A DNA stretch of 59,658 nt from Fuerstiella sp. (GTDB lineage: Bacteria; Planctomycetota; Planctomycetia; Planctomycetales; Planctomycetaceae). The notes below the pieces were generated by a model that saw only the letters and a list, made by a program, of their open reading frames with translations, was not told the origin of the DNA and searched no databases. A program made the translations under genes and the position numbers. Below, piece by piece: positions 21,498 to 27,780 of the stretch. The first letter of the stretch is position 1, and every line of letters starts with the position of its first letter. The stretch lies in NCBI GenBank assembly GCA_029941865.1, contig JAPYTO010000011.1, positions 1-59,658 of the forward strand. Reading direction: 5' to 3'.

Positions 21498-22724
21498 TCA
21501 GCCTGACACGCTATCGCTCGGATCCGTGTTCAGGCCCCTGCCCTCATAGATCAAGTGCTGGGAAATGCGATCACGCCAGTCTTCTTCGTCGTACGATATG
21601 AGGTCGATTAGCTCGTCCGGCCCGAGTGGAGCGCCTGCACTCAGGTGAGTTCGAAGTCGATCGCTGCCAAAGAGGATGTCGATCGGTGGCTTTATGTTTT
21701 CGTATTCGTACGGCGGGTGCAGCCATGAAAATTCCTGCGGCGACAGCTGACGGGCGGCGGCGATCATAATGATGGTCAGTTGGACGGATCGAATTGCTGC
21801 TGCGTCCAGAATGTGGATCCCCAGGCCTCCACACGTCTGGTGCTTCCACTTGTCGAACGTTGGTTGAAACCGGAGTGCCTGCAGACCGACACCCGGATGT
21901 TCGTGCGGACGAATGGCTGCAAGGAACTGATCCGGGTTCAGGGCTGGCGCACCGACGATTTCAAATGGCATTGTGGTGCCCCGCCCTTCCGACAGACTGG
22001 TGCCCTCCAGCAGAACCTGCCCTGGATACAATACTGCCGTTTGCCAACGCGGCATGTTGGGCGATGGAGGAACCCACGGCAGACCGGTGTTTGGGAAAAG
22101 CATCGATCGGTCCCAGCCACTCATCGGTACGACTGTGAGTTCTGCGCCAATGTGTTCCTCGGTGTTCAGCAGTTGGGCCAGTTCGCCGATCGTCAATCCG
22201 TGTCGTAACGGGATTTCGCTGCCGCCCACGAAGCTGCGAAAGCTGTTTTCCAGCATTGGCCCTTCGACGACTGCTCCTCCCAGTGGGTTTGGCCGATCCA
22301 GTACGACTACGCGGACGTGGTTTCGAGCGCAAGCGTGGAGGCATTCGAGCATCGTCCAGACGAACGTGTACACTCGTGTGCCGACGTCCTGCAGATCAAT
22401 GACCAGGCAGTCGATATCGGCCAGCATGCTGTCTGCGGGCCGTCGCGTTTCCGCGTACAGACTATGGACCGGCAGGTCCAGCGGCGCGTATCGCGTGTCA
22501 GGCGATTCGATCATGTTGGCCTGCTGCTCACCCCAGAATCCGTGCTGCGGTGAGAACAGAACGCGCAGTTGCCCGGGCAACTTTTCGTCCAGCAAATCGC
22601 AGGCGTAGCGAAACTCGTGATTCACCGAAGCCTGATTCATCAGCAGGCCCAGCCGTACGCCCCGTACCGCAGGTGGTGGTGCTGCGAGGAAGTTATCCAG
22701 TCCGGTTCGAATGCGATTCTGCAT
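21498..22724 (-). CDS. NamZ-like (DUF1343) protein without signal peptide
   Basis: 408 residues, full length for the DUF1343/NamZ family (CAZy GH171), whose characterised members are exo-beta-N-acetylmuramidases releasing MurNAc from non-reducing ends. Conserved blocks are present: DIDCLVIDLQDVGTRVYT, VVVLDRPNPLGG, RHGLTIGELA, VPPSPNMP and YPGQVLLEGTSLSEGRGTT. In the early SPEHGF motif this copy has SPQHGF with Gln at residue 60. No signal peptide or membrane span is seen, so it is probably cytoplasmic. It starts 6 bp after the second NamZ-like gene ends, third in the symporter operon. It may act on imported muropeptides or have changed function. Confidence 0.88.
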   Translation of the reverse strand: MQNRIRTGLDNFLAAPPPAVRGVRLGLLMNQASVNHEFRYACDLLDEKLPGQLRVLFSPQHGFWGEQQANMIESPDTRYAPLDLPVHSLYAETRRPADSMLADIDCLVIDLQDVGTRVYTFVWTMLECLHACARNHVRVVVLDRPNPLGGAVVEGPMLENSFRSFVGGSEIPLRHGLTIGELAQLLNTEEHIGAELTVVPMSGWDRSMLFPNTGLPWVPPSPNMPRWQTAVLYPGQVLLEGTSLSEGRGTTMPFEIVGAPALNPDQFLAAIRPHEHPGVGLQALRFQPTFDKWKHQTCGGLGIHILDAAAIRSVQLTIIMIAAARQLSPQEFSWLHPPYEYENIKPPIDILFGSDRLRTHLSAGAPLGPDELIDLISYDEEDWRDRISQHLIYEGRGLNTDPSDSVSG

Positions 22725-22730
22725 AGTGCG

Positions 22731-23933
22731 TCAATCGTACAACAGAAAGGTCTGCCGTCGTTCCAGAAACTGCTGCACTCCCGCAGTGGCAGTTTGCTGT
22801 ACTTGATCCGCTGGCTGCCCTGCCAGAATCGAATCCAGAGTCCGGCGATTGCCCAGCAGTCGCATGGCGTCTTTGCCTTTCCAATCGTTCGGATACAGCT
22901 TCCGCAACTGGGCCGAGATCTCGAACCCGACTATCAGTGGCTCAAACTGTTGTCGGTCTGTAATGACGATGTTGATGCCGCCGCACGGCTGGTTGGCGTA
23001 CTTGCTGGAAGTCGGTGCGAAGCGAATCGGCACGAACGCGACTCCTGGGATTTCGCGAGCGTTCAATGCTCCGGCCAGTTGACGCGGTTGAATCCAGGGG
23101 GCGCCGATCACTTCGAACGGTGTGTCTGTGCCACGACCAACGGAGATATTTGTCGTTTCTATGAGGCCAATCCCCGGATACAGCAGAGCCTGTGTCAGAC
23201 ATCGCATGTTTGGTGACGGATTGACCCACACCAGGCCGGTTGCATCCCACAGTGTGTCTCGCTGCCAGCCGTCGCAGCGAATTACATCAAGTTTCAGATC
23301 CAACTTCAGCTCCGTGCGAAACATCTGCGCCAGTTCGCCGATCGTCATGCCGTGACGAACCGGCAGATGGTGGAACCCGACGAACGATTTTTCACCGGCG
23401 TCCAGCATCGGGCCCGCCACATCGACTCCGTTGATGGGGTTGGGGCGATCCAGCACGACGAACCGTTTGCCGTGCTGCGCCGCAGCGTGCATCGCTTCGC
23501 CCATGGTTGAAATGTACGTGTAGAAACGTGCACCGATGTCCTGGATGTCAAAGACAATGGTGTCGACGCCGCTTAGCATCTGCTTTGTCGGACGACGTGT
23601 TTTGCCGTACAGGCTGAAGATCTTCAGTCCTGTCGATTGATCGGCCGCGTCATCGATTTTCGAGATGTCCAGCTTGCCTTCAAATCCATGCTCAGGACTG
23701 AACAATGCTGTGAGCGAAACGTTCGGGGCATCGTGCAGCAGCGTAACCGTGCTGACACCATCACGAGTCAGTCCGGTGTGATTGGTAATCAGGCCAATGC
23801 GTTGACCTGCCAGTTGATGAAACCCGTCACGTTGCAGCACGTCAACGCCACATAAAACGGTGTCCGCAGCTAAGCCGACGGAACCTGTCAGCAGAACAAC
23901 TGTTGCACAAACCTGTTCGAAACGAATCATCAT
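22731..23933 (-). CDS. namZ: NamZ-like exo-beta-N-acetylmuramidase, exported
   Basis: 400 residues, DUF1343/NamZ family (GH171). A signal peptide (CATVVLLTGSVGLAADT, cut near residue 23) sends it to the periplasm or outside. The SPEHGF motif is intact with Glu-81, and the blocks FDIQDIGARFYTYI, VLDRPNPINGV, RHGMTIGELAQMF, NPSPNMR and IETTNISVGRGTDTPF follow in family order. It would cut MurNAc from peptidoglycan chain ends outside the cytoplasm and feed the symporter. Its start overlaps the stop of the symporter gene by 4 nt (ATGA). The pairing with MurQ and a sugar kinase across the divergent promoter strongly supports the role. Confidence 0.88.
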   Translation of the reverse strand: MMIRFEQVCATVVLLTGSVGLAADTVLCGVDVLQRDGFHQLAGQRIGLITNHTGLTRDGVSTVTLLHDAPNVSLTALFSPEHGFEGKLDISKIDDAADQSTGLKIFSLYGKTRRPTKQMLSGVDTIVFDIQDIGARFYTYISTMGEAMHAAAQHGKRFVVLDRPNPINGVDVAGPMLDAGEKSFVGFHHLPVRHGMTIGELAQMFRTELKLDLKLDVIRCDGWQRDTLWDATGLVWVNPSPNMRCLTQALLYPGIGLIETTNISVGRGTDTPFEVIGAPWIQPRQLAGALNAREIPGVAFVPIRFAPTSSKYANQPCGGINIVITDRQQFEPLIVGFEISAQLRKLYPNDWKGKDAMRLLGNRRTLDSILAGQPADQVQQTATAGVQQFLERRQTFLLYD

Positions 23934-25438
23934 TCAGATCCCTTAGGTCGGGGGTACACGGTAGCGACCAACTCACCCACCACAAATGTCGTCACCGAAC
24001 CGATCAGTGCCAGCCAGGGCCATGCAATACTCCAGCCGAAGTTCGGTGCCATGAATTGAACAAACAGAAGGACCGTCAGTCCGGCGAATGCGCCTGTCAA
24101 TGCGGCAGCCTGCCCGGCTCGACGTGACAGCACACCAAGCGAGAAAATGCCCAGCAGTATGCCGGCGGAAAAACCGGCGATTGTCAATGCGCTGCGCACG
24201 ACGGTCGCGTCCAGCGTAATCGCCCAGATGCCGATACCGATCTGAACGACGCCGAAGATGACTGTCCACCACCGTGAAATCGCCAGCTGACGTTCCGGTG
24301 CAGGCGGAGTTTTACAGGCAGGTAGATAGAAGTCATTTAACAATGCCGACGCCGAAGCATTCAGCGAACTCGACAGTGTCGACATCGCGGCAGAAAGAAT
24401 GGCAGCCAGCATCAGACCGATCAGTCCGGTGTTCCGGGGAAAACTGTGCACGATGAAGTGAGCAAAAACCTGGTCCGCCTCTGCCGGAGCAACATTGCCT
24501 TCCAGCGAATAGAAGCAGGCCAGTTCAACGCCGATAAACAGAAACAACGCGAACTGAAACAGGACCACAAACGAGCTTAGAAAGATGGCTCGTCCCGCAT
24601 CGCGTTCGCTGCGAGCACTCAGGTAGCGCTGCACCATCATGTGGTCAGTTCCGTGCGTTCCGATGGTCAATACAGCTCCGCCGATCAGGCCTGCCCAGAT
24701 GTTGTAGGGATCAGATATCGAAAACCCAACTTCAAACAGCCGCGACTTGCCGGATGATTCGGCGAATGCCCACAGCTGATTCCAGCCGCCCGGAAGATTG
24801 TTGGCGATGATGATGACGGCCGCCGCACCGCCGAGCATGTAGATGACGAACTGAATGCAGTCATTCCAGACCACGGATCGCAGCCCGCCGAAGACTGTGT
24901 AGACAATCGTGACAGCTCCCATGGCCACAACGCTCCATGCGAACGGCCAGCCCAGCAGAGTGTGAACAACCAGTCCGGCCAGAAACAGCCTCAGCCCATC
25001 GCCCAGATTTCGGGTCACCAGAAACAACAGTGACGCGGCCGTTTTGGTGGCGCTGCCAAATCGCTGATCCAGCACCTGATATGCCGTGAACAGTTTCCCC
25101 TTGAAGTACAGGGGCAGAAAGACGCGCACAACAACGGCCCGCCCCAGCACGTACCCCATCGCAATCTGCAGCCATCGCATTCCGACTTCGCCGTAAGCCG
25201 CTCCTGGAATACTCAGCACGGTGGCGGTACTGGTTTCTGTGGCCACGATGGACCCCAGAATCGCCCACCAAGGTAACGATCGGCCACCCAGCAGGTACGA
25301 TTCGACGTCTTTGTTCTTCCGGCCGGACCAGAAACCGATGCCGATTGCTGCCAGCAGCAGCGAACTCAGGACCACAACGTCCACGATGCCAAGGTCTGCA
25401 CTCACTCTGATGATTTCTCCCCGTACCACAGTTGTCAT
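23930..25438 (-). CDS. Sodium:solute symporter (SSS family), probable MurNAc importer
   Basis: 502 residues with about 13 hydrophobic helices from IVDVVVLSSLLLAAIGIGF to the C-terminal ALIGSVTTFVVGELVATVY. The family core is visible: GFWSGRKNKDVESYLLGGRSLPWW after helix 1, the broken helix SIVATETSTATVLSIPG, and later NASASALLNDFYLP. Such proteins import sugars, amino acids or anions with sodium ions. Genomic context (NamZ genes directly downstream with 4-nt overlap, murQ and a kinase divergent) suggests MurNAc or a muropeptide as substrate; this is inference. The assigned ATG has no clear ribosome site, so the true start may lie a few codons downstream. Confidence 0.88.
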   Translation of the reverse strand: MTTVVRGEIIRVSADLGIVDVVVLSSLLLAAIGIGFWSGRKNKDVESYLLGGRSLPWWAILGSIVATETSTATVLSIPGAAYGEVGMRWLQIAMGYVLGRAVVVRVFLPLYFKGKLFTAYQVLDQRFGSATKTAASLLFLVTRNLGDGLRLFLAGLVVHTLLGWPFAWSVVAMGAVTIVYTVFGGLRSVVWNDCIQFVIYMLGGAAAVIIIANNLPGGWNQLWAFAESSGKSRLFEVGFSISDPYNIWAGLIGGAVLTIGTHGTDHMMVQRYLSARSERDAGRAIFLSSFVVLFQFALFLFIGVELACFYSLEGNVAPAEADQVFAHFIVHSFPRNTGLIGLMLAAILSAAMSTLSSSLNASASALLNDFYLPACKTPPAPERQLAISRWWTVIFGVVQIGIGIWAITLDATVVRSALTIAGFSAGILLGIFSLGVLSRRAGQAAALTGAFAGLTVLLFVQFMAPNFGWSIAWPWLALIGSVTTFVVGELVATVYPRPKGSE

Positions 25439-25858
25439 CGGTCAGCGACCGTGTCGATACTGTACACGAACCAGTCGGCTTTCGCTCGTAACACGTTTGA
25501 CCGTCGGTGTTGGCGTTTTGGGTCGGCGATGGCGGGGCATCGCTGGCCTCTGCAGCCGGCGCGTCGGCAGGTTGGACGTTCCGGCTGGGTGTTCTCGAGA
25601 AATGTGGTAGAGTCGTGGAGGGTGGCCGGAGGCTGGACTGAGCTTGCGAAGGAGAATTAAACCGGCACTGCCGGCCCCGGGGTTCACTCGTTCCTCGCTC
25701 CAACCACCGGCCACCCTCCCGAATCCACAACATTCCGTGATTTCATCTTTCCGGCTTTGGGCTGTCGAATTCGAAGGACTTCGCCGACCGGACGCTGCTC
25801 TTCCATCGCTCATACCTGCCATCACCGCAACGTATCCTGAATTGGTACCTGAAACTCG
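25439..25858. promoter_or_regulatory. Divergent promoter region of the MurNAc cluster
   Basis: 420 bases separate the symporter operon from murQ. A perfect 13-bp inverted repeat, GGAGGGTGGCCGG at 25617-25629 and CCGGCCACCCTCC at 25707-25719, encloses 77 bases that contain a smaller palindrome (CCGGCA-c-TGCCGG near 25662-25674). It could be an RNA hairpin in the murQ leader or an operator for coordinated control. No regulator gene of the MurR type is adjacent. Confidence 0.45.
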
Positions 25859-26791
25859 ATGACTTCTGACTCACATTCCGACTTGATCAATGATCTGACC
25901 ACAGAAGCCGTGAATCCGGCGTCTGCGAGAATTGACACGTTGACACCGGTGGAAATCGTACGGCTGATGAACGCCGAGGATGCCACGATTCCTCAGGCGA
26001 TCGCCCAGGAAGCCGAATCGATCGCCAGTGCAATCACGGTGATCACAGAGCGAATTCGCAACGGTGGGCGGTTGATCTACATCGGAGCGGGCACGTCCGG
26101 GCGTCTTGGTGTGCTGGATGCGTCCGAATGTCCACCAACCTTCAGCACTCTCCCGGAAATGGTTGTGGGGCTGATCGCTGGCGGCGATTCTGCGCTGCGA
26201 AAGGCGGCGGAAGGCGTGGAGGATCACCCCGAGACTGCTGTCGAAGATTTGCAGACCATCGACCTGGCCAGGGCTGACGTAATCGTTGGCATCGCCAGCA
26301 GTGGTCGCACACCGTACGTGATCGGAGCACTCAAACATGCTCGTTCCGTTGGAGCATTCGCGATAGGGCTGGTATGTAACGAAGGATCCGCTCTATCGCA
26401 GGTGGCCGACCTGATGATCACCCCGGTCGTGGGGCCGGAACTCATTACCGGTTCGACTCGAATGAAGGCGGGGACCGCGACGAAAATGATCCTGAACATG
26501 CTCACCACGGCAACGATGGTGCAACTTGGCAAGACATACGGCAATCTGATGGTCGACCTGCGGGCAACAAATACAAAGCTGGTGGCTCGCAGTTGTCGTC
26601 TTGTGACATTACTGACAGGCATTTCCGAAACGCAGGCGAAGGAAGAACTGCAAAAGTGTGACGGTGAACTGAAGACCACAGTCGTGATGATTCGTCGCGG
26701 TGTCTCTCCGGACGCCGCTCGCCGAATTCTCAGCGACTGCGGTCACCAGCTTCGACCGGCGTTGCAGACTGCCGACGGAGAAAATTCGTGA
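25859..26791 (+). CDS. murQ: N-acetylmuramic acid 6-phosphate etherase
   Basis: 310 residues, usual for the family. MurQ cleaves the lactyl ether of MurNAc-6-P to give GlcNAc-6-P and D-lactate in the cytoplasm. The SIS fold is seen in IYIGAGTSGRLGVLDASECPPTF, which includes the catalytic Glu of the ASECPPTF box, and in the phosphosugar loop TGSTRMKAGTATKMILNML. The N-terminal TEAVNPAS is also typical. The stop overlaps the GTG start of the kinase gene by 4 nt. It sits divergent to the symporter-NamZ operon. This is the anchor that gives the whole cluster its meaning. Confidence 0.95.
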   Translation: MTSDSHSDLINDLTTEAVNPASARIDTLTPVEIVRLMNAEDATIPQAIAQEAESIASAITVITERIRNGGRLIYIGAGTSGRLGVLDASECPPTFSTLPEMVVGLIAGGDSALRKAAEGVEDHPETAVEDLQTIDLARADVIVGIASSGRTPYVIGALKHARSVGAFAIGLVCNEGSALSQVADLMITPVVGPELITGSTRMKAGTATKMILNMLTTATMVQLGKTYGNLMVDLRATNTKLVARSCRLVTLLTGISETQAKEELQKCDGELKTTVVMIRRGVSPDAARRILSDCGHQLRPALQTADGENS

Positions 26792-27780
26792 CAGACCCGC
26801 ACGATAGGCTGGTGATCGGCGTTGATGCGGGCGGTACGTCAACGGTTGCGTGGATCGGTGAAGTCAGCGACGCAACATCTGAAAGGCCGTTGGGCAGGGG
26901 ACAGGCTGGCCCCGGCAATCCGAGATCCGTTGGTTTTGACCATGCGACGCAGGCGATCACTGCGGCGATCACGGCTGCATTTGAACAAGCGAACCTGACG
27001 GCCGCTCGGGTTGCGAGTGTTTGTCTTTGCGTCGCTGGAGCCGGGCGTGCGGCAGAACAGGAGCAACTGAAATCCTGGGCAAAGTCGCAGGGCTTTGCAG
27101 ACCGCGTGACAGTGATGGACGACGCCGAACCGATCCTCGCCGCGGCGTCGCGGGACAGCATCGGTATCGCTCTGATCAGCGGGACAGGTTCTCTGGCACT
27201 GGGCCGCAACGGCGATGGCCAGGTGGACCGGGTCGGTGGTTGGGGTTATCTGTTTGGCGACGAAGGCAGCGGCTATTCAATCGCGATGGCCGGACTTCAG
27301 GCAGCCGCCCAGGCGGCCGATGGTCGAGGCGAAAAGACGCTGCTGCTGAACGGTTTTATGGAACGATTTGGCGTCCGTACTCCGGCGGGACTCATCGAAT
27401 CTGTCTATGGTGCCGCCCTGTCGCGACAGCAGTTGGCCGCGTGCTGCACAGTTGTCTTCGAGGCCGCGCCGAATGACGATGTTGCACAGGAGGTGCTGGA
27501 TACTGCTGGCACTGAGCTGTCGGAGATGGTGACAACACTTGCGCAGAAACTGGGTTTCGAATCGAGCAGTTTTCCCCTGGGCCTCGCCGGTGGAGTGCTG
27601 CTGAATCAACCGACGTTTCGATCGGATGTTATCGGGAGAATTGGAATTAGTTCAGATCGCGTTGTTGACGTGCCCTGCCCCGTCGCAGGGGCGCTCATGA
27701 TCGCCAGCAGGTTGGCCAGGAAATATCCGGGTGCACGCGGGACTGACGGTGATCTTGATCCCCTTTTCCACGGCGAGTAA
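26788..27780 (+). CDS. BadF/BadG-type sugar kinase, probable MurNAc/GlcNAc kinase
   Basis: 330 residues of the ASKHA fold. The phosphate 1 loop is VIGVDAGGTSTVAWIG at the N terminus, the phosphate 2 region is ISGTGSLALGR, and GGWGYLFGDEGSGYSIA is the hallmark of the GlcNAc-kinase/MurK branch of the BadF/BadG/BcrA/BcrD family. Translation starts at a GTG inside the murQ stop region (4-nt overlap), so the two proteins are made together. In this context it should phosphorylate MurNAc (and perhaps GlcNAc) at O6 with ATP to make the MurQ substrate. The annotation as a dehydratase activator sometimes given to this family is unlikely here. Confidence 0.88.
   Translation: MTDPHDRLVIGVDAGGTSTVAWIGEVSDATSERPLGRGQAGPGNPRSVGFDHATQAITAAITAAFEQANLTAARVASVCLCVAGAGRAAEQEQLKSWAKSQGFADRVTVMDDAEPILAAASRDSIGIALISGTGSLALGRNGDGQVDRVGGWGYLFGDEGSGYSIAMAGLQAAAQAADGRGEKTLLLNGFMERFGVRTPAGLIESVYGAALSRQQLAACCTVVFEAAPNDDVAQEVLDTAGTELSEMVTTLAQKLGFESSSFPLGLAGGVLLNQPTFRSDVIGRIGISSDRVVDVPCPVAGALMIASRLARKYPGARGTDGDLDPLFHGE

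Follow-up and report, generated by a model that had tools for sequence, protein, structure and literature searches.

A cluster of five genes that probably serves the salvage of N-acetylmuramic acid (MurNAc) occupies positions 21498-27780 of the analysed window, a 59,658-nucleotide stretch of Fuerstiella sp. formed by contig JAPYTO010000011.1 of assembly GCA_029941865.1 (8.04 Mb, 612 contigs, 90.5% complete). The genes diverge from an intergenic region (25439..25858) in which the promoters of both arms presumably lie. On the minus strand, an SSS-family sodium/solute symporter (23930..25438, 502 amino acids) is followed by NamZ1 (22731..23933, 400 amino acids) and then NamZ2 (21498..22724, 408 amino acids), while the plus strand carries MurQ, the MurNAc-6-phosphate etherase (25859..26791, 310 amino acids), and then a BadF-type, apparently MurK-like amino-sugar kinase (26788..27780, 330 amino acids). 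Open reading frames, domains, and curated-family matches place all five families where a preliminary description of this DNA had put them. The four-nucleotide overlaps which that description proposed as binding each operon exist between the symporter and NamZ1 (ATGA, 23930-23933) and between MurQ and the kinase (GTGA, 26788-26791), but NamZ1 and NamZ2 lie 6 nucleotides apart and do not overlap. NamZ1 and NamZ2 are the only NamZ matches in the whole assembly. NamZ1 is 82-83% identical to the NamZ of two Fuerstiella metagenome-assembled genomes, and these closest relatives support a planctomycete origin of the window.

NamZ1 possesses both domains of the NamZ (GH171) family (NamZ_N, 283.3 bits; NamZ_C, 159.2 bits), carries the near-invariant glutamate of the PEHG motif (Glu81, in SPEHG), and resembles the solved structure 4k05 with an E value of 1.3e-80. 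Its hydrophobic N-terminus suggests that it is probably exported and acts outside the cytoplasmic membrane. In eight of the nine long planctomycete frames scanned, NamZ is joined to a beta-lactamase-fold domain, which the NamZ1 of the window lacks; the best NCBIfam match of the one such domain checked is PBP4B (217.1 bits, below the cut-off of 385). MurQ is assigned by the TIGR00274 equivalog (385.4 bits, cut-off 302) and has the solved relative 4s12 (E 2.1e-86). The kinase, a member of the BadF/BcrAD family (BcrAD_BadFG, 124.5 bits), is placed with MurK by its likeness to a solved MurNAc kinase: its best solved relative is the MurNAc/GlcNAc kinase 8zo3 (E 2.6e-36; GlcNAc, N-acetylglucosamine), with 8ow9 and 8oqw matching more weakly (E about 2.5e-4). 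The catalytic pair is Asp-Asp in the window kinase and Asn-Asp in 8zo3. For the MurK of Tannerella forsythia, PMC10465942 names T94 and S133-P134-L135 as residues that permit MurNAc.

The symporter belongs to the SSF family (SSF, 143.2 bits; TIGR00813, 204.9 bits, cut-off 184) and is the likely importer of MurNAc. Its true start is probably the GTG at 25405 rather than the ATG at 25438, given the starts of its relatives and an upstream GGGGAG. Arg150 is invariant in all 20 aligned rows, and the carboxylate-binding arginine (Arg135) of 5nv9, which we take to be a sialic-acid carrier, aligns with Gly146 in a stretch of lower confidence.

The linkage of these families recurs in other planctomycetes. 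Of 294 planctomycete genomes, 66 contain NamZ and 117 a MurQ that exceeds its cut-off; among the matches listed, at least 10 of the 66 NamZ genomes carry MurQ within about 15 kb of NamZ on the same contig, nine of them within 7 kb. In genome G100, MurQ lies 15 kb from NamZ with a score slightly under the cut-off. Neighbourhoods were fetched for 25 relatives, partly picked for apparent closeness of NamZ and MurQ, so that the counts among them are not an unbiased rate. Symporter, NamZ, MurQ, and kinase share one stretch in nine (G022, G097, G112, G286, G291, G153, G186, G380, and G364), three of the four families stand together at a contig end in G110, symporter and NamZ are paired in G100, G246, and G384, and the families are split across two contigs in G050. 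A protein search with NamZ1 only returned five loci, four with all four families and a fifth on a short contig that begins at NamZ; the layout of two loci from Fuerstiella metagenome-assembled genomes (L003 and L004) is identical to that of the window. The cultured planctomycete Roseimaritima sediminicola (L006) carries a form with NamZ1 only. Additionally, MurQ and the kinase are fused into a single protein in G097 and G380, and probably also in G153. Among the top 30 MurQ loci, 12 have the symporter next to MurQ. From the counts across relatives and MurQ loci, the triad of symporter, MurQ, and kinase forms the more constant core, to which NamZ is attached more loosely. Conservation of the linkage in relatives, on which the preliminary description had made its reading depend, extends to several planctomycete lineages and includes MurQ-kinase fusions, so that MurNAc salvage is well supported as the predicted role.

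The pathway that can be predicted from these sequences retains the order of steps given in the preliminary description, which family membership, curated scores, and recurrent linkage support. Outside the cytoplasmic membrane, exported NamZ1 would free MurNAc from peptidoglycan fragments at their non-reducing ends, and the symporter would take this MurNAc up, presumably with sodium. The kinase would then convert MurNAc to MurNAc-6-phosphate, and possibly also GlcNAc to GlcNAc-6-phosphate, after which MurQ would yield GlcNAc-6-phosphate and D-lactate, the former rejoining amino-sugar metabolism. NamZ2 would work in the cytoplasm, feeding MurNAc to the kinase from some imported substrate. We consider it quite probable that the cluster is such a MurNAc-salvage divergon.

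Several observations weigh against this reading. The triad stands apart from NamZ in G045 and in G270, itself a Fuerstiella, and in nine of the 25 neighbourhoods fetched, NamZ is accompanied neither by MurQ nor by a strongly matching symporter; one of the nine (G227) shows a weak symporter match of 78.7 bits. The window symporter is only 23% identical to its counterpart on a Bacteroides-like contig, and the kinase has a single NCBIfam match, to a GlcNAc kinase, which at 101.8 bits is far below the cut-off of 370. GH3, GH73, and GH20, candidate makers of MurNAc-ended chains, were not found in the 90.5% complete window genome or in G270, G022, and G097. Downstream of MurQ, the NagA-like match of the window genome reaches 167.1 bits against a cut-off of 225.65, and the PF01182 deaminase was not found in the window genome or in G022. 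NagA-like matches fall under the cut-off in all four genomes tested, and PF01182 is found in G270 and G097; because of the low NagA-like scores and the missing deaminase of the window genome and G022, the product of the cluster may instead feed cell-wall synthesis. MurA is present in all four genomes tested, that of the window among them, so that salvage would supplement synthesis and obligate scavenging of MurNAc need not be assumed for this organism. Separately, in G270 (L075) NamZ1 and the highest-scoring NagA-like match are about 1.9 kb apart, and NamZ1 is not near MurQ.

The below-threshold GlcNAc kinase match would also suit a cluster that handles chiefly GlcNAc, or a different amino sugar, and MurNAc only incidentally. 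Such a role is improbable, since MurQ shares a unit with the kinase and is fused to it in relatives, and the symporter stays by MurQ and the kinase in genomes whose NamZ is missing or located elsewhere (G270, G045, and G188).

Within the predicted MurNAc-salvage cluster, NamZ2 is set apart by one residue. It contains both NamZ domains (NamZ_N, 265.6 bits; NamZ_C, 140.9 bits), and its predicted model (mean predicted local distance difference test score 76.8, predicted template-modelling score 0.82) is closest in fold to 4k05 and 4jja. The glutamate of PEHG, which we take to be the proposed catalytic residue of NamZ, is replaced by glutamine in a PQHG motif (Gln60, in SPQHG); in the model, Gln60 directly follows a beta strand and precedes a low-confidence loop. 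Among 78 aligned NamZ proteins, drawn from planctomycetes and other bacterial phyla, from haloarchaea, and from Bacteroides-like contigs, glutamine stands here in all 13 rows of the NamZ2 clade and glutamate in 64 of the 65 rows outside it, the sole departure being a threonine in the second haloarchaeal paralog of L105. Both solved NamZ structures carry glutamate at this site, which is the only near-invariant position to switch between the groups; the remaining near-invariant residues are kept in NamZ2. A profile search of 392 planctomycete genomes matched 82, and the residue was read in 30 loci: the ten best genomes (at least 448 bits) all have glutamine, and the next (420 bits) has glutamate, as do the others read.

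In a quick tree, the glutamine rows form one group with a support of 85 (99 for the 12 rows without G026), which needs one change. A more careful tree, with the switch column removed, needs two, and one change suffices in 16% of its bootstrap trees; a single origin of the glutamine is not shown. Suspicion for the second change falls on the row of G026, the first to branch off in the quick tree.

The alignment and the N-terminus of NamZ2 reveal a conserved start region too short to accommodate a signal peptide, which points to an unexported, cytoplasmic protein. The missing signal peptide was considered as the novelty of NamZ2 and set aside, as the NamZ frames of L095, L097, L098, and L104 (haloarchaea, Streptomyces, and Paenibacillus) also start no more than about 15 residues ahead of the domain, yet they retain the glutamate. 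The glutamate-to-glutamine change argues against NamZ2 as a plain copy of NamZ1, and two NamZ genes in one cluster need not equal two exo-muramidases. No earlier description of an unexported planctomycete NamZ2 clade of glutamine type was found.

The leading, if tentative, explanation is that NamZ2 is an ordinary cytoplasmic exo-muramidase acting on an imported MurNAc-containing disaccharide, with an acid at position 66 or 67 replacing the glutamate. The retention of all other near-invariant NamZ residues is consistent with this, as are the match of the modelled fold to 4k05 (template-modelling scores 0.79/0.84), the Glu or Asp that 12 of the 13 glutamine rows carry at position 66 or 67, and the unexported NamZ with glutamate that occur in other phyla. 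It is harder to reconcile with the strictness of the glutamate, which is present in 64 of 64 rows of the glutamate group as well as in the solved structures, and with G026, which lacks the acid at 66/67. The loss of the presumed catalytic glutamate in every member of the NamZ2 clade could instead mark a catalytically dead, sugar-binding regulator of the cluster, and a domain scan of the flanking genes found no MurR-type regulator among them. This is rather unlikely, given that the other constant residues are retained and that NamZ2 lies away from MurQ in G270, G227, and G026.

A changed enzyme, such as one that opens 1,6-anhydro-MurNAc, is a less probable candidate. AnmK is a kinase that handles anhydro-MurNAc, and the glutamine-type NamZ2 might replace it by converting 1,6-anhydro-MurNAc to MurNAc, which MurK (AmgK in G026) would then phosphorylate. 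AnmK is found in none of 10 genomes with such a NamZ2 and in 13 of 20 genomes with NamZ1 only (Fisher p 0.001, or 0.015 once four genomes whose AnmK status was already known are omitted), though the genomes in this comparison are not independent. In G112, G286, G291, and G364, all without NamZ2, AnmK lies in the cluster or within about 3 kb. Furthermore, the NamZ2 of G026 sits between an LdcA-type peptidase and a MurU-AmgK-like fusion protein, beside a MurC-like ligase, these neighbours being named by best matches that all fall below NCBIfam cut-offs. Against this, seven of the 20 NamZ1-only genomes also lack AnmK, three of them (G045, G064, and G368) in the family of the window itself, and G227 combines a glutamine-type NamZ2 with no strong MurQ and an unrelated neighbourhood. 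T. forsythia is reportedly also without AnmK, with no evidence here of a glutamine-type NamZ in that organism. We know of no NamZ that acts on anhydro-sugars, which counts further against the replacement of AnmK. This proposal is accordingly regarded as doubtful and ranked below the exo-muramidase. If true, it would provide an ATP-free conversion of lytic-transglycosylase products to MurNAc for MurK and MurQ, or for the AmgK-MurU-like protein in G026.

Comparison with known systems narrows what is new. The preliminary description had regarded both the use of a sodium symporter and the presence of two NamZ proteins in a planctomycete as undescribed, and neither claim of novelty is supported. 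A 2022 paper reportedly bears T. forsythia NamZ1 and NamZ2 in its title. The MurT of T. forsythia belongs to the sodium-symporter superfamily, according to PMC5790795, and its gene shares an operon with ybbC (NamZ), murK, and murQ; Bacteroides-like contigs also join a sodium symporter with NamZ. According to PMC5388701, lytB, ampG, ybbC, murT, murK, and murQ form one transcript, and the two papers describe MurT and MurK as moving and phosphorylating MurNAc. The T. forsythia operon thus resembles the window in bringing together a NamZ-family gene, a transporter of the sodium-symporter superfamily, a MurNAc kinase, and MurQ. As the sources describe it, its single transcript also includes glycosyltransferases along with lytB and ampG, in an organism without MurA and MurB, whereas the window has five divergent genes, no AmpG or LytB, a MurA, and a kinase that resembles 8zo3 more closely than it does 8ow9 or 8oqw.

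Four faecal records filed as phage (L107-L110) contain NamZ regions of Bacteroides-like or other bacterial type and are apparently contigs of bacteria. A search for NamZ relatives on phage records returned six faecal records, and those fetched look bacterial. Two NamZ tested on faecal contigs are very close to Bacteroides fragilis 4jja/BF0379 and 4k05/BF0371. In L110, as in the window, an SSF symporter adjoins NamZ, and another NamZ, this one partial, lies downstream. A single stretch of L107 bears NamZ, an FAD-linked oxidase, an unnamed frame, a BadF kinase, and MurQ. These Bacteroides-like regions differ from the window in the many genes between, in the glutamate of both NamZ, and in their distant symporter.

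Escherichia coli murR / murQ-murP-yfeW shares with the window cluster a MurQ accompanied by a MurNAc transporter in a divergent layout, and its PBP4B gene beside murQ-murP parallels the fusion of many planctomycete NamZ1 to a beta-lactamase-fold domain (PBP4B-like in the one checked, below cut-off). It differs from the window in its phosphotransferase-system (PTS) transporter, its MurR repressor, and the absence of NamZ from that stretch. Bacillus subtilis likewise combines MurQ and NamZ in one cluster, murQ-murR-murP-amiE-nagZ-ybbC(namZ), but it uses a PTS transporter, NagZ, and AmiE, while the window genome has no GH3 match. The window cluster is a compact, divergent planctomycete version of a known MurNAc-salvage arrangement. 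A literature search combining NamZ, MurNAc, and Planctomycetes found no papers, and among the titles listed by further searches none concerns MurNAc salvage in planctomycetes.

Around the cluster, the domain-scanned outer neighbours encode a short-chain dehydrogenase/reductase enzyme and two response-regulator proteins, and the other flank holds WD40-like and protein-kinase-like frames named from translations only. These flanking genes do not suggest a cell-wall role; AmpG and LytB/SpoIID are not in the cluster, and the flanking genes belong to other families. Inside the divergent promoter region, an inverted repeat (25618-25637 / 25699-25718) has arms of 20 bases with 2 mismatches and about 60 bases between them. 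It is possibly a small mobile or REP-like (repetitive extragenic palindromic) element and is absent from L003, whose intergenic gap is shorter.

NamZ clusters of related content also occur on plasmids. Five haloarchaeal plasmids (L095, L096, L103, L104, and L106) carry NamZ beside genes annotated as nagZ and anhydro-MurNAc kinase, in Archaea that lack murein; a gene for a serine hydrolase is also present on four of them, and one for peptidoglycan recognition on two. Archaeal peptidoglycan scavenging is a possible explanation of these clusters. On a Paenibacillus plasmid (L098) and a Deinococcus plasmid (L099), NamZ lies near a BadF-type kinase, a MurQ or SIS-domain gene, and ABC transporters, which indicates that the salvage route recurs with other importers. 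A conjugative plasmid of Burkholderia savannae (L101) encodes a NamZ protein annotated at 796 amino acids, the N-terminal part of which has no family assignment.

Peptidoglycan, long said to be missing from planctomycetes, has since been demonstrated in them, according to PMC4432640. The cluster represents a concrete candidate route for the salvage of peptidoglycan sugars in these bacteria, testable gene by gene. The NamZ2 clade provides a clean one-residue comparison of glutamate and glutamine for locating the catalytic residue in a glycosidase family that received its name recently. NamZ2 itself is a candidate answer to how bacteria without AnmK may use anhydro-MurNAc.

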